DNA of 42,597 nt, taken from a virus. Numbering within the stretch: position 1 is the stretch's first letter; the number at the start of each line of letters is the position of its first letter. The notes under the pieces are model-generated. The model had not been told where the DNA came from, made no database searches, and worked only from the letters and a program-made list of their open reading frames with translations. The stretch lies in IMG/VR virus record IMGVR_UViG_3300047323_000683, positions 1 to 42,597 of that record; one strand, written 5' to 3'. The translations under genes and the position numbers were made by a program. Of this stretch, positions 4,491-38,323 are shown piece after piece.

Positions 4491-5393
4491 CTACACAAAA
4501 CCTTCGACAGTGATTGTTCCCGAAGACAACTTCGGCCCGGCCAGAACTATGTTGAAGTCCTTGTAGAAACCGAAAAGAATCGTGGATTCGTAAGTTTCCT
4601 CTCCGATCCAAACTATTGGCGTGGAACGCATTTCAGCCAGCAAGCGCCGTATCTTCGCTGCTTCAGAGGTTTCCAATGCAATGTCGAACTCGGCCCGGTT
4701 TGAGTACGAGCGCGGAATAATTGTGGTGTTGCCGAAGTCATCCGTGGACTTTCGGCTGTAATCGTTGATGCCTACAGAGCTGCCATACAGCGCATCACCG
4801 AGTTTCTTCCACGCGCCGACTACGATGTGGCCCACTGCCGCCGTGCCTGATCCGGCGTCTACCGTCACCAGGACGTCAGCAGAGCCGTAGGCGGGCATGT
4901 CCAGCAGAACAAAGTCTGTGCGGACGTCGATCTCGGAAAAGAAATAGTCGTACCAGTTGGTGACGCCGCCATCGACAAGGCTGATGACTCGCCGGTACTT
5001 CTCCCCTTCCAGCGGATCCACCATGGTGACGGTTACCGTGCGCCCGGCGACATTGAACATCGCCAGCGAGTTGACCACGGCGCCAGGCCGTAGCCGAACG
5101 GTGATCGTTCCGGCGTTCGTGGTCAGCGACTCGACCTTGGTGTCGAACATCCGCCAGCGGTTATCGGCACCGATCAACTGCCACTTTGCCGGAGCCGTTG
5201 CCGTCACAACCTCTTCACCAGGCTTTACGCCGGCGGGAACCGCCGCCAGCGCTTCCCAGACGTTATGGGCCAGCAGCACCCGGGCGGCAATGGCGTAAGT
5301 GGCCGTCGCCGACCAGGCCGGGTAATCGCTTTCGGGGACGTTGCTGCTAATCAGCTTCGCCTCGGTGATCTCCACCGGTTTGATGAGCCTCAT
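4491..5393 (-). CDS. Putative minor tail protein
   Basis: A 300-residue, mostly beta protein with no signal peptide (MRLIKPVEITEAKLISSNVPES, then WSATATYAIAARV and W-rich strands). Its position fits a tail-tip component: between tape measure and fibre, its ATG overlapping the tape measure stop in ATGA. I do not recognise a defined family motif such as a distal tail, lambda J or NlpC/P60 domain. It could join the tail tube to the fibre. It is the only gene between tape measure and fibre, so the tail tip looks unusually simple, or other functions are fused into the tape measure. Confidence 0.65.
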   Translation of the reverse strand: MRLIKPVEITEAKLISSNVPESDYPAWSATATYAIAARVLLAHNVWEALAAVPAGVKPGEEVVTATAPAKWQLIGADNRWRMFDTKVESLTTNAGTITVRLRPGAVVNSLAMFNVAGRTVTVTMVDPLEGEKYRRVISLVDGGVTNWYDYFFSEIDVRTDFVLLDMPAYGSADVLVTVDAGSGTAAVGHIVVGAWKKLGDALYGSSVGINDYSRKSTDDFGNTTIIPRSYSNRAEFDIALETSEAAKIRRLLAEMRSTPIVWIGEETYESTILFGFYKDFNIVLAGPKLSSGTITVEGFV

Positions 5394-8300
5394 GCGTAAT
5401 CCCGCTCCTGTGGCATGCCTTCGTTATCGAATTTCTCCAGCAGTTGCGCGACCTTCTGGCTGTACTTGGCGATCTGAAACTGTCCGCGCTGATTCTCCGC
5501 GCGCAGTTCTCGAATCTCGGCCAACAGCGCCGCGTTGTCGTCACCACCATTGAGCATGTCGGCCGTCTGGCTGGCGTTGTAGATCCGCGACGGGCCGGTA
5601 ACTTCCAGCTCAGGGCCGTTTTCGCCGACAAGGCGCAGGCCACCCGAGTGAAAGCCGCCCGAGGCATAGCCTTTGATTTCGCCGTTCGTGACTGCATCAG
5701 CCTTGATCGCTGCGGCCAGTTCCGCAGCGGTCTTACCCGCTGCCATCCCGGCCCAGTACGAGGCATCGGAAACCGACGCATCCCGCCCCAGCACGTTGTT
5801 GTAGATGGCGTTGATATCGTTGTAGCCGACGCCCCCGCCAGAGCCGGTATAGCCAGTTGACGCGCCGGCCGCTGGGGTCGAGGGTTTAGCCGCGGCTGCC
5901 GCTGCCGCCGCAATCGCCGACTGCACTGCCGCGTTGAAAGCGTTCAGCGCCTCGGCAACGCTCACGACCGAATTGTCGATACCGTTCAGTGCGTCCAGCT
6001 GCTTCTGAGCGGCGTCTAGCTGATCGTCCAGCTTGGCCATCTGCAGGTCGAACTGATCCTTCGCGTCGGCGATTTGAGTCTGCACGCTCTTCAATAGCTG
6101 CTGCTGGGCCGTCAGCTGTATGCCGTTGATGGCGTTGAGCTGAGCGACCACGTTCGCCGTGCGGCCTTGCTCCCGGGTGAAGTCCTCGAGCGACCCGTAC
6201 ATGTCGGTGGTGTTGGTGCTGACCGACGTCAGAGCGTCGTCCAGCCCATCAAAGCCGACCAGCGAGCCGCCGCCTTGGGCAGTGGCCAGCGCATTCTGGA
6301 GCGTTGCCTTGGCTTGCTCGCGCAGCATCTTCACCGTCGTTTCAGACGTGCCGTTGAGCGACTTCAGCGCAGTTTCCAGTGCAGTGCCGGTGTTGGTCAG
6401 CCCGGTCACGCTGGCCTGCGCCGTCGACAGCATGTCGTTCAGCGATGCCACTCGCGCGTTGTACCCGGCGGTGAGCGAATTTTTCTCAGCGGTGACCGCC
6501 CGTTGCAGCGCGCTCATTGCGTTGCTTGCACCGGCGATAGCGGCGGCCTGCGCCGCAGACTGTGCTTGTTCCTGGGCTTTGTAGAACGTGTCCGCCGATC
6601 CGGCCAGGGCCATCATGGTGTTGTAGAGCGTTTCGCCGGATTTGGTTGTCCGGTCAATACCGTCGACAATTGCCCGATACCCGTCACGGTTGGCCGGCAG
6701 AGCAATGTTCGCCTTTTTGAATTCGGCGGTGATATCCGCCACGGATCGCGCGGTGTTCTCCGACTCACTGTAAAAGGCGCCGTAGTACGTTTTCTGACGA
6801 GCCTCAATGATGTCGTAGGCGGCGTCAGCAGCCTGCGAAAGCCCAATCAACGTCAGGAACAACTGACGGCCCGACTCTGTCGATTTGTCGATACCTTCGA
6901 CCATGTTCTTAAAGCCTTCGCGGCTGTCGGGCAGCACCTGGTCAACAGAAGTAAACGTATCCTTAACGTCTTGCAGGCTATCTATCGACTTTTGTGTATC
7001 GGTGAAAAACGCATCGTAGTAGGCGGCCACCGATGTTTTCAGAGCATCGATACCACCGGCCCACGCTGAAAGCTGCTCAGCCATAAAGCCGCCACTTACA
7101 GTCATGTCGTAAACGCCCACGTTGACGTGTTTCAAGACCGCATTCACGTCGTAGAGGTTTTTCACAAAGGCTTGGAGGCCGACATAGCTGAAGCCACTCA
7201 GCCCCGCGTCGGTGGCCTTGGATACCGCGACAACGACCTGGTCACCCAGCAGCGCGAACCAATGATCAACCTCGGCCTGGATTTGCTCCGAGGTTTTACC
7301 CTGGGTACTGATCTGGGACGAAGCCATGGTTAGGCCGTCGAGCACGCTGTCGTTGAGCTTGACGCCCAGTTGGGTGAATAGCGCCATTGCTCCCATGGCC
7401 GTCGCGTTGTACTGGCTACCAAGCGCATCCTGCGTGTCGTCCGGCAAATCGCTGTACAGATAACGGGTCTTCGAGCTGCCCGAAATCAGGCCGCCTTTTT
7501 TCTTCTGTTTCACGTACTGATCGGCATCGAACTCACCGCCGGTAACACCCAGCTGAATGCCAGTGTCCTTGGTCTGGTAACTACCGCCGAACAGCTTGCT
7601 GCCGACTTTGCTCCAAACAGCCTGGTAGAGGGTCGACCCGGTCAAGATGGCAGCTGCCTTGCCGCCGACGATTTTGCTCAACGCACCATCGACGATTTCG
7701 AATGCCTTGGCAGTCAAGGTCGGGATGCTCATCACGACCTTGCCCAGGCCAGTGCCGCCGGCGCTATCGTACATTTCACCAGCATCAGGACGAACGCCAG
7801 CGCTATAGAGCTTGCCCGACTGAATCATGCCCATGACCACAGCAAGCGGCCACATCGACGCGGCACTGCCCAGCGCACCTGAAGCACCGGCGGTAGCACC
7901 ACCACCTGCCGCTGCGGCGCCAGCTGTTCCCGCCTGACCAGCAACCCAAGCGGCGTAAGCCGAGCCGGTATAACCCGCCTGCATGGCCCCAATCGCCGCC
8001 GTGTTGCCTGTGATCGCGCCCACCAATGTCGCGCCAACGCTGGACAGCGTAGAGGCGGCGGTAGTCACCAAGCCGCCGTAGTAGCTTGCCACCCCACTCG
8101 CCGCACCCGAAACACCGCCAGCGGCATAACCGCTCGCCGCAGCCTGGCCTACGCCAGTGATCGCGCTGTAGGCGGAATAGAGATTCTTGACGGTGCCGAT
8201 GATGCCGCTTGTGCCCCCCGAAGACCCACCAGAAGAGCCATCCCCGAAGAGGTTACCCAGCGTATCGCTGATGCCGCCCGACTTATTCGTTCCCAACAAC

Positions 8301-11300
8301 GCGTTTGCAAAGCTGATGATGATCGGCTTGGTGATCGCCTCATGCGCCATCTCGGCCAGCAACTGCTTGAAGCCATCAATCAAGCCTTCAGAGAAACCTT
8401 TGAACCCTTTATCGATGTTCAGCCAGGCGTCAGCAAAAGACTTGTCGATGCGGTCCAGGGCGCCTTCGGTCAACCGGCCCCAGACGGTGAGCTTGGCCTG
8501 GTTGTCCCCGTATTCCTGCCCAAGCTTCACCAGCGAATCGCGGTAAAGGTCAGCCTTTTCCGGATACATCGCGATAGCGTCGTTGAGGGCCTTCTGGTCC
8601 TCGGTGTATTCCTTCAGCAGCTTGATTTGCGGATTCAGCCGGTCGACCAGGTCATTGGCTTTGTTCGCGGCCTCGAGCGCCTTATTGGCCTCCAGTTGTG
8701 CCTTGGTCTGCTTCAGCAGCTGGTCATACTCCTTACTGCCAACCGCAATGTTCTTGCCGGCCAGCTCGGTCTGCATCGACTTGTTGATGTTGTAAGCCTC
8801 AAGCGCATCGGAGCCCTGCAACGTAGCTTTGGCTTGGGCCAACGTCTGATCGACCTCGACCTTCATCGCGGCGGCAGCCTTAGCAACGTCGCGGCGGTCC
8901 TCAGCATCCTGCATGTCGTTGATCGCTTTGGTGACCCTGTCGCGCGCACCGGCGCTGGTCTTGAGCAGTTCCTCTTCGATCTTCTGCTGGATTGTCATTG
9001 CCCGGACGTTGTCGGCACCGCCCAGGTATGCATCGGCCATGTCGTTGGCGGACTTGGTTGCGATGTCCGATTTGTCCAGCAACTCCTGCAGGGCTTTGGC
9101 CTGAGCTTTAAGTGCGGCCGCCGCAGCGTTGGCGGCCTTATCCACTCGCTTATTCGGATCGGTGCTCTCTTCAATTTGAGCCGTCGCTTTTTTTGCTCGC
9201 GCAACAGGATCAATATTTGGGTCAATGCCTACACTTGCGTTATTCTGGCCTATTGGTTGAACACTCCAGGCCAAATTATTAGTGTTAGCTGCTTTACTAT
9301 TTACAATAAGCGGGTTCTTGCCGGTAACGAACGATTGGTTTTTGCCTATATTCGCAGCCGCATTTATAACCCTATTCATTTCATCGATTTGTTTGCTCGC
9401 GCTATCTTGGGCGGCTTTGGCAGCATCTTCGTGTGCTTTTTTAGTCGCGGCGGCTGCATCTTTTGCAGCATTCTCGACCGTATATAAAGCGATCAGTTGC
9501 TTCTCTAATGACGCTTTCGCTACCTTGTCATTTTCTTTGACGGCGTCCTTGTACTTATCCAGAACATCCTTTTGCTGGCTGATCACCTTGGCTTGCTCGC
9601 GCTGCTCGCTCGTCAGGCCCATTTGATCGGCTTTGTAAGCAGCAATGGCAGCAGCATTCGCCCCAAATAAGTCGCGGCTTTCTTTTAGGCCTTCGATGTA
9701 CTTGGCCCAATCGCTGGCACTGGTAGAGGCTCGACCAGAGGATACTTGTTGAGCGGCAGACAACTTATCTGTGCTCGCAGCTGCGCCAGCTGTTGCAGCA
9801 TCAACTGCGGACAGTTTCTTTGTAAGTTCCGCAGCGCTTTGAGAGTTCTGGGAGTAAGCAGCTGCAATTTCTACCAGGCGAGCAGCCTGAACAGGCGCAA
9901 TCTTCGCGCTTTCCTTCGCCCAGTTGGTCACGCTATCCAGCGTCCTGGTGCCCGCCTTAACTTCGGCGATCATTTTCACAAACTGCTGCTGATATTCGTC
10001 GCTGCTTTTGTTAACCATATTCAAGCTGGTCATTGCGACATTCGAATAATCGGCCAAATCACCTGCAGCGGACTTCAGGGCATCCTTTTGCTCCTTGACC
10101 CAGGTTGCAGACTGGAGGCGCTGTTGCTCCGCGCTCAGTTCTTTATATTTCTGCGTGGTCTGATCGATGGTCAGTCCGTGGTCAAGCAACGCTTTGCTTG
10201 CCTTGTCGGCACTACCCCCAAAGTCAATGAACGAAAGAGCCAGCAAACCAACAGTAGCGATAAGCCCAACAGGGCCGGTCATAAGCCCTAATAGCGCGCC
10301 GCCCGCAGTCCCTATGCCAGCCATGGATCGAGATGTGGCAGTCGCGGCGGCAGTAGCTCTGTCAGAGAGCGCAATCGCCTCGTTCGCGGCGAGAGTGGTC
10401 TGCTCATATTTAATTGCCGCCGCCTCCCTGACTTTGTACGCGGCCTCAATTTCAGCCGATGTTCCAAAGATGGTTGCGGCAAGAGCAACTTCGGCAGCCC
10501 TGACCTGATTGATCATTGCCGTCTCAGCCACGCGCAATTCACCGATGCGTGTCATTGACTGCATCCGGCCCACATCCGTGATTTGCGCGGCGTGTCGCTG
10601 CATTTCGAGCTCGCGCTCAGCGGTCAAGCTGGCCTGGGTAAACTTCAAATTTCCGACTTCGGACGCTTGGCGCACCCGATCAGACGCTACCTTTTGCTCG
10701 GCTGCTGCCAGATCGGCGGCAGCGAGGTCGAGCACAGATTTCGACTCGGCCTGTCGAGCAATTGCAGTTGCAGCAGCCTGACTGGCGCTGGCAGCTGCTG
10801 CGACCGTTGCGGCGTTGGCGGCCGGCACTGAGCGCAAAAGTGCTGCTGTGTGCTCTATCGAGGCCTTCGTCGCCGAAACAAAGGATACCGCCGCCTGCCC
10901 AGCTGCCAGAACTAGGCGCGCAGCGATGACGCCGGCGAGTGTTTCAGCGACATTTGTCACGCGTTCCACTGTTACCGAGAACGAGTTCCCGTCCGCGGTG
11001 ACCGAGTCGAGGCTTTTGGCCATGCCTGTGAGCACGTCAGAAAGCTTGGAGCTTGTGCTGGTCGCTTGGTCGAACTTGCCGATCAGGTTGGTGGCCGAGT
11101 TATTGAGCCTGGTCATGCCTGTGCTGACGGTGTTCTGCATTTTGCCGAACTGCTCGTTTACGGCAGCGGCCTGGGCCTGCAGCGCTTTCACCACTGAATC
11201 CGCTGTCAGTTGCCCCGCCGCACCAAGCGTGCGCAGAGCGCCCACAGACACACCCATACCCTTGGCGATGGCCTGGGCCAACGCCGGGGCCTGCTCCATC

Positions 11301-11869
11301 ACCGAGTTAAGCTCTTCGCCACGCAGCACGCCAGAGGCGAACGCTTGCCCGAGCTGAATCAATGCAGCGTTTGCCGATTCAGTCGAAGACCCGCTGATCA
11401 CCATCGTCTTCGCAATGGTCTCGACAATCCCGGCCACGCCCTGGCCGGAAAGCTTCAGTTCTTTCTGGTTCGTGGCGATTCGCTGATACAGCTCAGCGGT
11501 GGCAGTCAGCGGCTGTCCGGAGCGTTGAGCAATATCGAACACAGCATTCTGAGCGGCGGTAAATTCAGCGGCGCCAGAGGTGACGAGCTTCAACCGGTTG
11601 GCAACAGTGGTGTATGCCTCGGCGTGGTCGAGCAATGCGGTAATACCGGCACGGCTCACAGTAAACGCCAGAGCGCCCTTGAGGGTGTCGCCAAGCGCTT
11701 GCGCGCTGCGGCCCACCTGGTCGAAAGCGCTATCAATACGGCCAAGCTGCGTATCAATGCGCCCGGATACTTGCGCCACGGTCGCGTCGGCCCTGGCCAT
11801 CTCCTGACGGAGCTGCGCCGTGGTCGCTTCGAGGCGAATCAGCATCCCCTGGACTTCTTGACCTGACAT
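5390..11869 (-). CDS. Tail tape measure protein
   Basis: A 2159-residue tape measure that sets tail length and is ejected with the DNA. The N-terminus has the typical phage tape-measure domain (HAEAYTTVANRLKLVTSGAAEF, TAELYQRIATNQKEL, FASGVLRGEELNSVMEQAPALAQAIA). Long Ala/Gln/Lys-rich coiled regions follow, with hydrophobic segments (GGALLGLMTGPVGLIATVGLLAL and a Gly/Ala-rich stretch coded near 7.8-8.1 kb). Two tandem repeats of about 77 residues are coded near 6560-7025 (AYYDAFFTDTQKS, TYYGAFYSESENT). Near the C-terminus are a DUF4214-like piece (IYNNVLGRDASVSDASYW) and the common ending YASGGFHSGGLRLVGENGPE. The ATG at 11869 has GGAG 8 bases upstream and is preferred to a start 12 codons earlier. 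At about 0.15 nm per residue the tail would approach 300 nm, if unprocessed. Confidence 0.95.
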   Translation of the reverse strand: MSGQEVQGMLIRLEATTAQLRQEMARADATVAQVSGRIDTQLGRIDSAFDQVGRSAQALGDTLKGALAFTVSRAGITALLDHAEAYTTVANRLKLVTSGAAEFTAAQNAVFDIAQRSGQPLTATAELYQRIATNQKELKLSGQGVAGIVETIAKTMVISGSSTESANAALIQLGQAFASGVLRGEELNSVMEQAPALAQAIAKGMGVSVGALRTLGAAGQLTADSVVKALQAQAAAVNEQFGKMQNTVSTGMTRLNNSATNLIGKFDQATSTSSKLSDVLTGMAKSLDSVTADGNSFSVTVERVTNVAETLAGVIAARLVLAAGQAAVSFVSATKASIEHTAALLRSVPAANAATVAAAASASQAAATAIARQAESKSVLDLAAADLAAAEQKVASDRVRQASEVGNLKFTQASLTAERELEMQRHAAQITDVGRMQSMTRIGELRVAETAMINQVRAAEVALAATIFGTSAEIEAAYKVREAAAIKYEQTTLAANEAIALSDRATAAATATSRSMAGIGTAGGALLGLMTGPVGLIATVGLLALSFIDFGGSADKASKALLDHGLTIDQTTQKYKELSAEQQRLQSATWVKEQKDALKSAAGDLADYSNVAMTSLNMVNKSSDEYQQQFVKMIAEVKAGTRTLDSVTNWAKESAKIAPVQAARLVEIAAAYSQNSQSAAELTKKLSAVDAATAGAAASTDKLSAAQQVSSGRASTSASDWAKYIEGLKESRDLFGANAAAIAAYKADQMGLTSEQREQAKVISQQKDVLDKYKDAVKENDKVAKASLEKQLIALYTVENAAKDAAAATKKAHEDAAKAAQDSASKQIDEMNRVINAAANIGKNQSFVTGKNPLIVNSKAANTNNLAWSVQPIGQNNASVGIDPNIDPVARAKKATAQIEESTDPNKRVDKAANAAAAALKAQAKALQELLDKSDIATKSANDMADAYLGGADNVRAMTIQQKIEEELLKTSAGARDRVTKAINDMQDAEDRRDVAKAAAAMKVEVDQTLAQAKATLQGSDALEAYNINKSMQTELAGKNIAVGSKEYDQLLKQTKAQLEANKALEAANKANDLVDRLNPQIKLLKEYTEDQKALNDAIAMYPEKADLYRDSLVKLGQEYGDNQAKLTVWGRLTEGALDRIDKSFADAWLNIDKGFKGFSEGLIDGFKQLLAEMAHEAITKPIIISFANALLGTNKSGGISDTLGNLFGDGSSGGSSGGTSGIIGTVKNLYSAYSAITGVGQAAASGYAAGGVSGAASGVASYYGGLVTTAASTLSSVGATLVGAITGNTAAIGAMQAGYTGSAYAAWVAGQAGTAGAAAAGGGATAGASGALGSAASMWPLAVVMGMIQSGKLYSAGVRPDAGEMYDSAGGTGLGKVVMSIPTLTAKAFEIVDGALSKIVGGKAAAILTGSTLYQAVWSKVGSKLFGGSYQTKDTGIQLGVTGGEFDADQYVKQKKKGGLISGSSKTRYLYSDLPDDTQDALGSQYNATAMGAMALFTQLGVKLNDSVLDGLTMASSQISTQGKTSEQIQAEVDHWFALLGDQVVVAVSKATDAGLSGFSYVGLQAFVKNLYDVNAVLKHVNVGVYDMTVSGGFMAEQLSAWAGGIDALKTSVAAYYDAFFTDTQKSIDSLQDVKDTFTSVDQVLPDSREGFKNMVEGIDKSTESGRQLFLTLIGLSQAADAAYDIIEARQKTYYGAFYSESENTARSVADITAEFKKANIALPANRDGYRAIVDGIDRTTKSGETLYNTMMALAGSADTFYKAQEQAQSAAQAAAIAGASNAMSALQRAVTAEKNSLTAGYNARVASLNDMLSTAQASVTGLTNTGTALETALKSLNGTSETTVKMLREQAKATLQNALATAQGGGSLVGFDGLDDALTSVSTNTTDMYGSLEDFTREQGRTANVVAQLNAINGIQLTAQQQLLKSVQTQIADAKDQFDLQMAKLDDQLDAAQKQLDALNGIDNSVVSVAEALNAFNAAVQSAIAAAAAAAAKPSTPAAGASTGYTGSGGGVGYNDINAIYNNVLGRDASVSDASYWAGMAAGKTAAELAAAIKADAVTNGEIKGYASGGFHSGGLRLVGENGPELEVTGPSRIYNASQTADMLNGGDDNAALLAEIRELRAENQRGQFQIAKYSQKVAQLLEKFDNEGMPQERDYA

Positions 11870-11886
11870 GTACTTTTCTCCGGGCG

Positions 11887-11911
11887 AAAAAAAAGCCGCC
11901 TTCACGGCGGC
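11887..11911 (-). terminator. Strong intrinsic terminator before tape measure gene
   Basis: On the minus strand a GCCGCC/GGCGGC stem with a 5-base loop is followed by eight T residues. It lies between the cargo gene stop (11936) and the tape measure start (11869), inside the late operon. Read-through, presumably by Q-modified polymerase, is needed to reach the tape measure and lysis genes. Confidence 0.8.
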
Positions 11912-11935: not shown

Positions 11936-12583
11936 TTACTTATAACTAACAGCAGCCCATTTCATATATGCCAGAACAGCAGACAATCCATATAAGCTTG
12001 CTTGACTGTCCTTTGATTCAGGATAAGGCCATTCTACGTACCTAGTCCGTACCAAGCTGGACTTCTTCATCTCTTGTAAGATTTTTTGAGAAGTTGCAGC
12101 ACTAAACCCGCCATAATTAGTAGTAACGTACGGCTTTCCATCGCCCACTCGTATAGACGAGCTGTATCCTGGATAGTGATCCAACCCTACAGATATGGTG
12201 TAGCCTCGCTTACGACTGTAATGGATAAACATATTCCCTTTCAGCACCAAGCAAGCAATCGCGTCAGTCATAGGGTCTTTTGAACAGCTTACATCCCAGT
12301 TTGTTGCAAGGCCTTCGAGACTTGCTGGATCGCTGTTAGCAATCGTGCCATTCGCATAGGCATAGTCGATACTATACTTAATACCTTCATAATTACCAAT
12401 CTCAGCGTTGTACACCAAAGACTTTGGAAACTTCGGAATAGTACGCTCAGCCATTACTCCCGTAGCAGTAAACATTGAGCTTGGCTTGAGCACATTTGGT
12501 AGACGCTCTACTTCACCTGCATAGATTGTCGCCGAAGCCCACAGTAAACAAATAGCACTGGAAATCTCTCTAATCTTGATCAT
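11936..12583 (-). CDS. Secreted IalB-like cargo (moron) protein
   Basis: A 215-residue protein with a clear Sec signal peptide (MIKIREISSAICLLWASATIYA, cleavage likely after Ala22). The mature part has WDVSCSKDPMTDAIAC with two Cys (100, 111) placed for a disulfide. SSIRVGDGKPYV, ILQEMKKSSLVRTRYVEWPYP and SLYGLSAVLAYM follow; this layout recalls the invasion-associated locus B (IalB) family of periplasmic proteins. AGGGA lies 6 bases before the ATG. It sits between the tail assembly chaperone and the tape measure, where no export-dependent protein is needed for virion assembly, and its DNA is more AT-rich than both neighbours. This suggests an acquired lysogenic-conversion or superinfection-exclusion gene. 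Function is inferred only. Confidence 0.75.
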   Translation of the reverse strand: MIKIREISSAICLLWASATIYAGEVERLPNVLKPSSMFTATGVMAERTIPKFPKSLVYNAEIGNYEGIKYSIDYAYANGTIANSDPASLEGLATNWDVSCSKDPMTDAIACLVLKGNMFIHYSRKRGYTISVGLDHYPGYSSSIRVGDGKPYVTTNYGGFSAATSQKILQEMKKSSLVRTRYVEWPYPESKDSQASLYGLSAVLAYMKWAAVSYK

Positions 12584-34138: not shown

Positions 34139-34452
34139 TCGTCGGCGTACCCCAGGCGGACATTCGCAAACAGATCAAGGCCGACCTGGAACGGCAGATC
34201 GATGCTTTCCTCAATCGCGGTAAAGAGATCCTCGAGGTGCCCGCCGGCGCCAGCAAGGAGGCGCCTTTCTACGGCGCCACCGGCCACACCGAAAAGCTCC
34301 GGGCGAAACGTGATCGCATGGCCCCGGCGGTCCGCGAGCTGGCAGACAAAGGCATTGCGAAGAAAGGCATTGCGAAAGAGCTAAAGCTCAACGCCAGCAC
34401 GGTCGCGCTGATCCTCAAAGAAAACAAAATCACCATCGCAGCGGGGCATTAA
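34135..34452 (+). CDS. Hypothetical helix-turn-helix-like protein
   Basis: A 105-residue protein coupled to the previous gene by ATGA. The N-terminal half is a charged helix (ADIRKQIKADLERQIDAFLNRGKEIL). The C-terminal half (VRELADKGIAKKGIAKELKLNASTVALILKENK) looks like a helix-turn-helix for DNA binding. It contains a short duplicated unit (GIAKKGIAKE) coded by a near-perfect 15-base repeat. Regulatory function is an inference. Confidence 0.7.
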   Translation: MIVGVPQADIRKQIKADLERQIDAFLNRGKEILEVPAGASKEAPFYGATGHTEKLRAKRDRMAPAVRELADKGIAKKGIAKELKLNASTVALILKENKITIAAGH

Positions 34453-34546
34453 TGCGCCGCATACCGTCCCGGGCGAATCACCGTCGCCGACAAACCCAGC
34501 TCTCCCTCCCACCCAGCGGCCTCGCGGCCAAGCCGGAGAAATCCCC

Positions 34547-34900
34547 ATGTCCACACCTACCGATACAACCGAGTTCCTGAACGAGCTGAACGGCGGCGCG
34601 TTCGCCAGCCAGATCGGCTACGCAATCTCCGAAGTCGCCGCTGGCGTTGTCGAGCATGGCAAAGCCGGAAAGCTGGTCGTTACGCTCGATTTCAGCCAGA
34701 TCGGCGACTCCCACATGGTCAAGATCAAGCACAAGCTCGACTTCAAGGTGCCGACCAAGCGCGGTACCCGTAGCGAGAACACCGCGCTGGACACACCGAT
34801 GAATGTCGGCACAGGCGGCCAGGTGACGCTGTTCGCTGAAGCTCCGCACCCGGGGCAACTCTTCGAGCGCAACGAAACGCCGATCAAGCCGCGCACCTGA
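34547..34900 (+). CDS. Hypothetical protein upstream of DUF2303
   Basis: A 117-residue protein (TEFLNELNGGAFASQIGYAISEVAAGVVEHGKAGKLVVTLDFSQIGDSHMVKIKHKLDFKVPT). It has a beta-rich core and a C-terminal VTLFAEAPHPGQLF. It sits just before the DUF2303 gene, with which it is usually paired, and is preceded by a GC-rich hairpin leader. Possible role in recombination or nucleoid protection; unknown. Confidence 0.78.
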   Translation: MSTPTDTTEFLNELNGGAFASQIGYAISEVAAGVVEHGKAGKLVVTLDFSQIGDSHMVKIKHKLDFKVPTKRGTRSENTALDTPMNVGTGGQVTLFAEAPHPGQLFERNETPIKPRT

Positions 34901-34939
34901 TCCACCGCAACAACCTCCCTCCCCATAGAGACCTGACAC

Positions 34940-35755
34940 ATGTCCTTCACGAAAGAAGCACTCCAGCTCGTCAACGACAACGCGCTGATCGCCGCAGGCA
35001 AGACCCTGCCAACGTTCACGCCTACGGCCGTCATCCCGGAAGGCGCAAAAGTGCTGGACCTAGAGAAGTTCCAGGAAGGCCGCAGCCGCTTCCGTGGCGT
35101 CTTCGCCACTCATTCCCTTGCGGACTACAGCGTTTACGTTGCAGACCGAGCAGCAGCGGGCGCGCGCGGCTTCATCGACCAAGACGGCATGAGCTGCAAC
35201 GTACTGTTCAACATCGGTGATGCAGAAAAGCCTGGCCATGCCGATGACCGCGCCGTGCTGAAACTGAAGGCCACCGCCGGTTACAAGGCGGTTCAAGAAA
35301 TCGCCGGTAGCCCGATGAGCCAGAAGGACCTGAGCGACTGGATCGAAGACTGGCACCAGTACCTGACCCCGGTCGACGCCGACGACAACCCTGTGTCGCT
35401 GAGCAAGGCCATCGCAGCGGTCCGCACCATCACCGTCAAAGCTACCAGCGAGTCGGAGACCACCGTCGGCGATACCAGCGCCAGCCGCAGCGCAATGGAC
35501 CAGATCGAAGCCAAGAGCAAGGAAACGCTGCCCACGGCACTGCTGTTCAACGTTGTCCCGTTCGAAGGTTTGATCCAACAGGAAATTCGCCTGCGCGTAA
35601 CCGTGATCACCAGCGGCTCGGTGCCGGTGCTGAAGCTGCGTTGGATCGGCGAAGAAGTTCAGCGCGAGGCGATTGCGCAGGAGTTCAAGTCGGTGCTGGA
35701 AGACAAGATCGGGGGTGCGGCGAAGCTCTCGCTGGGCGCTTTCGATCCACGGTAA
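34940..35755 (+). CDS. DUF2303 family protein (YfdQ-like)
   Basis: A 271-residue protein of the DUF2303/YfdQ type (VLDLEKFQEGRSRFRGVFATHSLADYSVYV, LKLKATAGYKAVQEIAG, MSQKDLSDWIEDWHQYLTP, TLPTALLFNVVPFEGL). The family is frequent in early operons of lambdoid prophages; its function is unestablished. Its start follows a short leader 39 bases after the preceding stop. It is the last gene before the inserted minus-strand cargo gene. Confidence 0.9.
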   Translation: MSFTKEALQLVNDNALIAAGKTLPTFTPTAVIPEGAKVLDLEKFQEGRSRFRGVFATHSLADYSVYVADRAAAGARGFIDQDGMSCNVLFNIGDAEKPGHADDRAVLKLKATAGYKAVQEIAGSPMSQKDLSDWIEDWHQYLTPVDADDNPVSLSKAIAAVRTITVKATSESETTVGDTSASRSAMDQIEAKSKETLPTALLFNVVPFEGLIQQEIRLRVTVITSGSVPVLKLRWIGEEVQREAIAQEFKSVLEDKIGGAAKLSLGAFDPR

Positions 35756-35770
35756 TAGTTAGCTCAAGAG

Positions 35771-36682
35771 CTATCGCGGCTTTTGCTCGGTTCTCGGAGT
35801 TATTTTAGGGATGCTCTCGGAGGGGCTAACGATAGACTGTACGGATACGTCAGCCCCTTCAAACCTTTCCATAAAAATCGAGGCCATGGTTCTACCGGTT
35901 CTCTGGCTCTCTTCAAATGCAGCGATTATCTCTTCACCCTTGATCGGCCTGTTGGGAGCCATCACCATTGTTTGTATATTGAAGACCGATTCTGCCTCAT
36001 CGTCAGTTGGCGTCGTGTAATTCACTATATCGGCAGGATCAACGCTCATGGCGTCCTGCATTCCGAATCCATGAGCGCCGAAATCAAAGTGCATACCTGG
36101 TTCTTTTGCCAGCCTCATTTGAAATAGATCTTGATCACTGAAAGGCAAATGGTAGTCATTGAAGTTGATAAACTGACGACCATCTATTCTCATCTGAAAA
36201 TGATAATGCGGAAAATTTGAATGCCCTGAACCGTGACCAACAAAGTCGTTAGGCGAACAATCAAAAGACCACTCTATATTTTTCCATTTTATAGTGGAGC
36301 TAAGTACCTTCCCATCTGGAGCCTCAGCCACCAAATCGTTAATATTGGCAGCTATTCGCTCAGCGTTGGCGCACCATCTTAAGTAAGAACTAATATTGTG
36401 ATACCCAAATTTTTTTGCGATCAGAGTGATATCTTTATTTTTGAACTTACCCCTGCGCAGGAGCCAATGAACGCAGGGATCCTCTTTGCTAACCGTTTTG
36501 AAGTCTTTCTCACATAGATAACAAAAGTCTTTTTTGTAACCTTCGATAAAACTTTCGTGCTGAGAATGATGTTCTGCTTCATTAATTTCATTCCAGCGCG
36601 CAAGATCTTCGGGAGTGAATTTATCAAAATCAGCCTTTGCTCTCGCGACAGCTTTGTCAAAGTCAACAGCCATGTCTTTCAT
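35771..36682 (-). CDS. AT-rich cargo gene, uncharacterised zinc-type protein
   Basis: A 303-residue protein, the only large gene on this strand in the right-hand early region, and clearly more AT-rich than its neighbours. The N-terminal part has a probable zinc site: CYLCEKDF (Cys54, Cys57) and DPCVHWLL (Cys70, His72). A conserved-looking core follows (HSNFPHYHFQMRIDGRQFINFNDYHLPF, near 154-181), rich in His and aromatics. No signal or membrane segment. The start may be Met4 (36673), which has GGGAG 10 bases upstream. Position, strand and composition mark it as horizontally acquired cargo, possibly an exclusion or host-conversion function. I do not know the family's role. Confidence 0.8.
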   Translation of the reverse strand: MKDMAVDFDKAVARAKADFDKFTPEDLARWNEINEAEHHSQHESFIEGYKKDFCYLCEKDFKTVSKEDPCVHWLLRRGKFKNKDITLIAKKFGYHNISSYLRWCANAERIAANINDLVAEAPDGKVLSSTIKWKNIEWSFDCSPNDFVGHGSGHSNFPHYHFQMRIDGRQFINFNDYHLPFSDQDLFQMRLAKEPGMHFDFGAHGFGMQDAMSVDPADIVNYTTPTDDEAESVFNIQTMVMAPNRPIKGEEIIAAFEESQRTGRTMASIFMERFEGADVSVQSIVSPSESIPKITPRTEQKPR

Positions 36683-36827
36683 GCTCCCATTCGTTGTGCA
36701 CTCTGCGATGTCCTATGTATAGGCGAACGCCAAAGGATGTTCCAGCGTTATTAACTGCTCATTCCCCATTCACAAACCAAATTGCCACCATCCTCATGGA
36801 GGGCGGCGCGCACCCTGGAGAAAGCTG

Positions 36828-37403
36828 ATGATCCAAGGCCAGATATCCGATGCCCAGGTCGGGCTGCTGTGGCACACGCTTGGCCTTCGTCCTGAACTGG
36901 GCGAGCGTGGACGCCACCCCTATCGAAACTTCTACGGCACCTCCGTGGACGCGCCCGAAGCGCCAGACCTCGATGCGATGGTCGGTGCTGGCTTGATGGT
37001 GAGCACCAAGGCCCCGGCCTTCTGCCCCGCAGATGAAGTCGTCTGGCAGTCAACCGAGGATGGGAAGCGAGTGGCCATTGCCAGTCTGCCTCCCCCGCCC
37101 AAGCGAACGAACTTCGACGCCTATCTGGATACGGACGGCGGCTACGATAGCTTCCCCGAATTTCTTGGCATCAATCAGCCTAGATATCAGGAACGCGGCG
37201 GACGCGGAAATCGCGAATACAGAATGGTTCGCTACAGGCGCCGCAACGTCAGCCGCTTTCATAGCCAAGAATACCTGCAGCTCTGTGAGTCGGTAGAGGT
37301 CGCTGGCGATTGGTGCACGGCCAAAAAGGATGCCAAGGCCAGTTACAAATCAGCCCTCAACGCAGCTAGGCCCGCCCGGAAGGATCGCGGCGACGGCTTC
37401 TAA
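36828..37403 (+). CDS. Hypothetical early protein
   Basis: A 191-residue protein starting MIQGQISDAQVGLLWHTLGLRPELGERGRHPYRNFYGT. The N-terminal half resembles a small alpha/beta module; the C-terminal half is Arg/Lys/Gly-rich (GRGNREYRMVRYRRRNVSRFHS). GGAG lies 8 bases before the ATG. It restarts the plus-strand operon after the cargo gene, and the 145-bp gap before it must hold the cargo gene's promoter. Function unknown. Confidence 0.72.
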   Translation: MIQGQISDAQVGLLWHTLGLRPELGERGRHPYRNFYGTSVDAPEAPDLDAMVGAGLMVSTKAPAFCPADEVVWQSTEDGKRVAIASLPPPPKRTNFDAYLDTDGGYDSFPEFLGINQPRYQERGGRGNREYRMVRYRRRNVSRFHSQEYLQLCESVEVAGDWCTAKKDAKASYKSALNAARPARKDRGDGF

Positions 37404-37453: not shown

Positions 37454-38323
37454 ATGAACCCCTATGCCCTGAGCGGCAAGACCGTCGTGAGTTTTTCCGG
37501 CGGCCGCAGCAGCGCCTACATGCTGCGCCAAGTGCTCGACTGGAACGGCAACCACGAAGACCTGATAGTGCTGTTCGCTAATACCGGCAAAGAACATCCG
37601 GCCACCCTTGACTTTGTGCAGGACTGCGCCGAACGCTGGGGAGTGCCGATCACTTGGCTTGAATTCCGCGATGACGATGCAGGGTTTGCTGTAGTCGATT
37701 TCGCCAGCGCCAGCCGTGCGGGCGAACCATTCGAGGCGCTGATAAAGAAGCGCAGCTATCTACCGAACCCCGTCACCAGGTTCTGCACCATCGACCTGAA
37801 AATCCGGATCATCCACAAATACCTGCGCAGCATGGGCCTTTCGACCGAGGATGAGCCGGTGGGCATGATGACCGGCATTCGCGCTGATGAGCCCCGCCGG
37901 GTTGCAAAGATCCGCAACAGGGGCAGTACCAGCGAAAGTAAGCACGCCACAATGATCATGCCCTTGGCTGACGCCGGGGTCGGCGTTCAAGACGTCACTG
38001 ACTTCTGGGCGGCTCAGGCCTTTGACTTGATGCTGCCGACGATCAACGGAAGGACGCTCGAAGGCAACTGCGATTTGTGCTTCCTGAAGGGCGCTAAGCA
38101 GGTCTATTCGATCATCGCAAGTGATCAGGGGCAGCCAGAGCGCAAAGGCGATTGGTGGGCTCGACAGGAACGAAATGCCAAGTCGAGTAACGGAACAACC
38201 GGTGAAGGCGCACTGTTCCGTTTCGACCGGCCCAGCTACCAGCAGATGCTCGACTATTCAAACATTCAGATCGACATGTTTGCCGAGCACGACGAAGCCA
38301 TCGAGTGCTTTTGCGGAGATTGA
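37454..38323 (+). CDS. PAPS-reductase-like ATP-pyrophosphatase protein
   Basis: A 289-residue protein of the phosphoadenosine-phosphosulfate reductase/adenine-hydrolase superfamily. The PP-loop is SFSGGRSS (residues 13-20), then IVLFANTGKEHPATLDFV and MMTGIRADEPRRVAK. Cys111 (FCTIDLK), Cys206/Cys209 (CDLCFLKG) and Cys285/Cys287 (CFCGD) could bind an iron-sulfur cluster. Phage members occur in early operons; proposed roles include sulfur or nucleotide modification chemistry, none shown here. No dnd-type neighbours are present. It is preceded by the 31-bp leader repeat. Confidence 0.88.
   Translation: MNPYALSGKTVVSFSGGRSSAYMLRQVLDWNGNHEDLIVLFANTGKEHPATLDFVQDCAERWGVPITWLEFRDDDAGFAVVDFASASRAGEPFEALIKKRSYLPNPVTRFCTIDLKIRIIHKYLRSMGLSTEDEPVGMMTGIRADEPRRVAKIRNRGSTSESKHATMIMPLADAGVGVQDVTDFWAAQAFDLMLPTINGRTLEGNCDLCFLKGAKQVYSIIASDQGQPERKGDWWARQERNAKSSNGTTGEGALFRFDRPSYQQMLDYSNIQIDMFAEHDEAIECFCGD

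Follow-up and report, generated by a model that had tools for sequence, protein, structure and literature searches.

The stretch of viral DNA analysed here (42,597 nt, IMG/VR record IMGVR_UViG_3300047323_000683; hereafter the window) contains an ATG-initiated minus-strand ORF of 303 aa, located between a DUF2303/YfdQ-type gene and the next gene of the plus-strand early operon. The features of this region are the following:

34940..35755, plus strand: DUF2303/YfdQ-type gene, left anchor of the hotspot (phrog_210, E=1e-79)
35749..36760, no strand: replaced hotspot segment; homology to near relatives ends at 35748 and restarts at 36761-36775 (L080, L106, L162 and others)
35771..36682, minus strand: cargo gene, 303 aa, undescribed protein family (alternative start at 36673)
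36149..36235, minus strand: codons of the second conserved cluster, G149-H150...P158-H159-Y-H161-F-Q163-M...H178 (51-row alignment)
36467..36523, minus strand: codons of a CCCH zinc-type site, C54-x2-C57-x12-C70-x-H72 (98-100% conserved, 51-row alignment)
36828..37403, plus strand: 191-aa early gene, right anchor of the hotspot (phrog_21796, E=1e-68)

The homolog of the left anchor is assigned to the YfdQ family in phage records. A previous sequence-only reading of the window had described a 303-residue minus-strand gene of lower GC between DUF2303 and the next early gene, containing the Cys/His motifs CYLCEKDF and DPCVHWLL. The ORF and its flanks were confirmed, both motifs are present in its translation, and the GC content of the cargo gene is 0.434 (GC3 0.44), in comparison with 0.584 for the whole window. 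The flanking plus-strand genes have a GC of 0.61 and GC3 values of 0.69-0.77. A scan of the surroundings of the cargo gene for consensus promoters and terminators gave matches no more frequent than those found in shuffled sequences.

The window protein aligned end to end with homologs at 46-77% identity. In comparison with its closest homologs, synonymous sites were saturated (pS 0.83-0.88) and nonsynonymous change was low (pN 0.14-0.15). This saturation made dN/dS not computable for the window gene against homologs L059 and L060; the value for the pair L061 and L062 was 0.036. Full-length alignment together with saturated synonymous and low nonsynonymous change indicates that 35771-36682(-) is a functional coding gene, and the gene is under strong purifying selection. 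The closest homologs begin at the residue corresponding to Met4 of the window ORF ('MAVDF', 'MAINF'), so that the true start may be at position 36673 rather than at 36682.

The comparison of the surroundings of the gene covered 80 viral contigs in which a DUF2303 relative occurs and four in which the downstream gene has a relative. In the near relatives L080/L162 (contig 3300047469_000118) and L106/L159, the aligned flanks of the window comprised positions 34402-35748 on the left and 36761/36775-37457 on the right. The left flank of L080/L162 was 91% identical to the window up to 35748 and the right flank 96% identical from 36761, the values for L106/L159 being 81% and 97%, respectively. Locus L161 aligned with the right flank alone and carried a 205-aa gene at the same position. 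Between the conserved flanks, the near relatives contain ca. 0.6-1 kb holding another AT-rich minus-strand gene, unrelated to that of the window (222 aa in L080 and 193 aa in L106). Across 75 DUF2303 loci, the gene that comes after DUF2303 was on the minus strand in 67. The mean GC of these 67 genes was 9-10 points below that of their own locus, with lower values in 64 of them; the eight plus-strand genes found after DUF2303 had a GC equal to that of their locus. Clustering of the occupants of the 75 loci resulted mostly in singletons, i.e., the genes in the slot are mostly unrelated between loci.

The slot combines conserved anchors on both sides, unrelated occupants, and a composition unlike that of the phage backbone, as befits a cargo hotspot. 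We consider it almost certain that the interval between DUF2303 and the next early gene is a prophage cargo hotspot and that the window gene is its passenger. The proposal of the sequence-only reading that the gene is cargo inserted within the early operon is borne out by the near relatives, with the same flanks and a different AT-rich minus-strand gene, and by the presence of the family in unrelated mobile contexts. Comparison of neighborhoods across loci revealed varying locations for the homologs, which are not core phage genes always found in the same place. A search of a limited collection of papers for descriptions of the DUF2303/early-gene slot of Pseudomonas phages found none.

Many unrelated minus-strand passengers were observed to share a leader of ca. 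65 nt, with the consensus GGCTGGCGTGATTCGTTGAARTGGGGTATTNGTGTTC-GACCGGCATGGAGCCGGATCAAGGAG followed by the start codon. A profile constructed with 15 passengers of the same loci matched the 5′ end of 33 of the 67 cargo genes (loci in L079-L158; the seeds are counted within the 33), with nine other occurrences in those loci. The leader also precedes two members of the window gene's family (L059, 9599-9649; L060, 7374-7427) and, in L061 (6461-6521) and L062 (5426-5480), a second cargo gene; a search of the window with the same profile showed that the leader is absent from it. Its elements are a promoter-like arrangement (TTGGCG/CTGGCG...TATTAC), a CCGGC-ATGGA-GCCGG hairpin, and a ribosome-binding site. 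The hairpin was conserved in 96% of cells, and two sequences had one pair altered on both sides. We think that the leader is a putative shared promoter followed by a 5′ mRNA hairpin.

Few of the slot occupants have a Pfam name (DUF2971, n=4; DUF5677, n=2; DUF3800; DUF4238). Some of them matched PADLOC candidate-defence models, namely PDC-S31 (n=3, E values to 3e-45) and PDC-M14B (n=3, to 1e-10), and one matched a TIR effector model (E=9e-7). In the control for these searches, made with plus-strand neighbors, DNA methyltransferases predominated (18 of 66), so it provides no usable baseline for enrichment in the slot. Among the other occupants, L080:4951-5616(-), L096:4867-5793(-), L121:5164-6072(-), L151:4961-5770(-), and L079:2101-3030(-) look by eye like CHAT-like, SIR2-like, TIR/nucleotide-sensing-like, HNH-like, and membrane abortive-infection-like proteins; where these were run singly against Pfam, no match was obtained.

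Searches of Pfam, NCBIfam, and PDB sequences with the single window protein and with alignment A1 yielded nothing above chance, and PHROGs contained no convincing match to the window protein. No family of PADLOC-DB 2023 was matched at E<=10, and no known defence model matched. Searches of 50,697 phages, 72,556 plasmids, and E. coli genomes with the window protein or with diverged members gave no match, and a text search of the literature for the sequence motifs found none. The protein had been predicted to belong to an unknown family, and these profile searches agree with that prediction, with no clear homology to a known housekeeping enzyme.

Homologs were found at 57 loci (22-77% identity), 12 in IMG/VR and 45 in GTDB contigs. 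Their hosts include Pseudomonas, Azotobacter, Vibrionaceae, Shewanella, Psychrobacter, Acinetobacter, Enterobacter, and Janthinobacterium, among others, and extend to Bacteroidales and Patescibacteria MAGs. A copy on a contig assigned to Kiritimatiellae was 79-86% identical to gammaproteobacterial copies, a figure that may reflect a binning error of the MAG. The family is sporadic, being present in no more than 1% of the species sampled, and its frequency was 2 of 398 genomes in the sample of the Pseudomonas family and 3 of 297 and 3 of 287 in two other groups. In loci of more than 50% GC, the GC of the family gene was on average 14 points lower. Disrupted or truncated copies were present in L036, L049, and L054, as expected of a dispensable trait.

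The genomic contexts of the homologs were diverse. The family gene converges with DUF2303 in the window, L033, and L060, and lies elsewhere in the related phages of L059, L061, and L062. A P2-type portal gene (phrog_68) is near or next to it in L028 and L068, a phrog_52 tail gene adjoins it in L064 and L067, a baseplate gene is beside it in L069, and an integrase in L064 and L070. In L020, the family gene has several attC-like repeats of ca. 100 nt on either side, and the locus also contains an integrase-like gene; in L042, only the attC-like repeats are present, after the gene. These arrays were revealed by repeat comparison; a strict attC pattern with perfectly complementary ends gave no useful matches around the gene. 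No attC-like pair flanks the window gene at the expected place, and this copy lies outside any integron. The distribution of the family is sporadic, crosses phyla, and involves several vehicles.

Clustering of 1229 neighboring ORFs did not reveal any constant partner gene shared across contexts. When ten proteins encoded near chromosomal copies were tested for likeness to defence proteins, one was a clear type I methyltransferase (L038) and the others gave weak matches. Three neighborhoods contain genes of separate interest. In L018, an ORF of 1617 aa (5096-9946, plus strand) with a short and weak PADLOC match ends ca. 20 nt before the Psychrobacter family copy, and both genes may be co-transcribed. 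In Azotobacter beijerinckii, HicA/HicB-like genes lie ca. 2.4 kb from the family copy (L016 and L163:1477-2107). The P2-like prophage of L068 carries, in addition to the family member, adjacent HNH-like and ATPase-like ORFs that look by eye like a Septu-type pair (5842-7727, minus strand).

Analysis of the 51-sequence alignment revealed that, besides the CCCH site, residues G149, H150, P158, H159, H161, F162, Q163, M164, and H178 are 98-100% conserved. H159, H161, Q163, and H178 are invariant, as are N115 and W138. In the confident AlphaFold2 model obtained with alignment A2 (mean pLDDT 93.5, pTM 0.89), the N-terminal part consists of long helices, which are accompanied by a Cys/His knuckle and a small beta-sheet, and the C-terminal part has a beta-alpha-alpha-beta arrangement. 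Along the predicted strand 159-166, H159, H161, and Q163 occupy alternating positions and would thus face the same side. Residues C54, C57, C70, and H72 form a putative structural zinc site, and the second, His/Gln cluster is a putative metal or ligand site. A metal-dependent enzymatic mechanism is possible on this basis, its chances being somewhat short of even. Two candidate distant relatives were tried and rejected: HicA (hhalign probability of 0.3%, with a HicA profile of two sequences only) and DUF4160 (profile-profile probability of 0.9%, with a very thin profile). The likeness of the window protein to the HicA mRNA interferase and to DUF4160 is superficial and consists of a motif, PHxH and then 'DGR'; both of these families have short His motifs located on a strand that precedes or follows a hairpin.

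These observations describe an undescribed, strongly conserved bacterial protein family; prophage hotspot cargo itself is of a known kind. Beyond the observed placement, strand, composition, and distribution of the gene, its location makes a role in defence or host interaction plausible, and the more specific reading of an anti-phage function (exclusion or abortive infection), which also rests on location, stands at about even chances. According to this proposal, the gene would be a moron, a single-gene passenger acquired horizontally by a Pseudomonas temperate phage and oriented against the early operon. Its own upstream region would drive its expression in the lysogen, in which the oppositely oriented early operon is repressed, and the protein would work without a partner. 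Both host and prophage would profit from the cargo, most probably because it blocks or aborts infections by other phages, and the cargo would be selected because the protected host retains the prophage. At the molecular level, the protein might, speculatively, be a soluble metalloprotein whose N-terminal helical part owes its order to the CCCH zinc knuckle, and H150, H159, H161, Q163, and H178 on the small beta-sheet might form an active or ligand-binding site, for instance that of a nuclease or other hydrolase.

Genes with non-defence roles are found in cargo slots as well, and the family might instead comprise stress, metabolic, or regulatory conversion genes that raise the fitness of the lysogen without acting on phages. 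Its presence outside prophages, including contigs of small-genome Patescibacteria and integron arrays, is consistent with this alternative, as are the absence of a PADLOC model match and of consistent defence neighbors. Nevertheless, the family is rare and sporadic even among close species, a pattern that fits arms-race genes better than metabolic ones; it has no similarity to any metabolic family, and defence candidates are present among the other genes found in this slot. We regard this alternative as rather unlikely.

Single-gene cassettes of integron arrays are often toxin-antitoxin units. This fact, together with the size and solubility of the protein (small and soluble), its invariant His/Gln cluster, and the HicAB-like genes at ca. 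2.4 kb from the L016 copy, would fit a toxin-like gene, of ribonuclease type or similar, that acts by itself or stabilizes the mobile element and whose toxicity would lead to addiction or abortive infection. On the other hand, no conserved antitoxin is adjacent to the gene across contexts, matches of single members to Pfam toxin families were at chance level, and the comparison with the two-sequence HicA profile argues against this origin, which appears improbable. A counter-defence or host-takeover gene (e.g., of anti-restriction or anti-CRISPR type) aiding phage entry or replication would fit the location among early-region genes of a temperate phage. However, the window gene is oriented against the early operon, in a slot where unrelated genes can replace it, and the family is absent from the 50,697 phage records. 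The family also occurs in bacterial chromosomes and integrons at a distance from phage genes, where such a function would not help the host, which makes this very improbable alternative the least likely one.

The anti-phage reading has parallels in known systems. In P2-like phages of E. coli, the region from gpA to the portal gene gpQ is a documented anti-phage hotspot, containing old and tin in P2, and other such hotspots of prophages and satellites include the P4-like cos-adjacent slot and slots of Vibrionales and Bacillales prophages (PMC9122126). The DUF2303 slot resembles these hotspots in being a small interval between two conserved phage genes with a high turnover of unrelated passengers, and the likeness to the gpA-gpQ slot extends to the location of members of the window gene's family beside a P2-type portal gene. 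In contrast with those hotspots, the anchors here are DUF2303 and an early-region gene of Pseudomonas phages, and the anti-phage role is a candidate one. BstA is a prophage-encoded single-protein phage defence (PMC8585504) that resembles the window protein as a single protein of Gram-negative prophages with no partner gene, the analogy being functional and not based on sequence. The copies in L020 and L042, flanked by attC-like repeats and with no partner gene, are similar to cassettes of chromosomal integrons, from which the window copy differs in its location outside an integron.

The study of hotspots that have conserved phage genes as anchors is a productive route to new immune systems, and the DUF2303 hotspot yields dozens of unrelated small passenger genes, most of them without a family name. 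Among these occupants, the window gene stands out by belonging to a deep, strongly conserved family present in several phyla, with invariant metal-type residues. A broader reading, tentative and on the doubtful side, would be that of a widespread, undescribed family of single-gene anti-phage effectors, perhaps of new fold, whose metal site comprises two clusters. Prophages and integrons would carry the family from phylum to phylum, and Pseudomonas phages would place it in a standard slot in which roughly half of the unrelated passengers have the same promoter-plus-hairpin leader, i.e., a plug-in expression module for defence cargo. If a defence role of the window gene is confirmed, the known prophage repertoire would gain a one-gene defence, and the slot and the shared leader would constitute a sequence handle for finding more.

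Two other regions of the window deserve mention. Just downstream of the hotspot, after the phrog_21796 gene, lies a PAPS-reductase-like gene at 37454-38323(+) (phrog_424, E=2.5e-51). A second AT-rich ORF, with a local GC of ca. 0.44, is found at 11936-12583(-), upstream of a tape-measure-like ORF (5390-11905, minus strand), and encodes a protein of 215 aa with a signal-peptide-like start.
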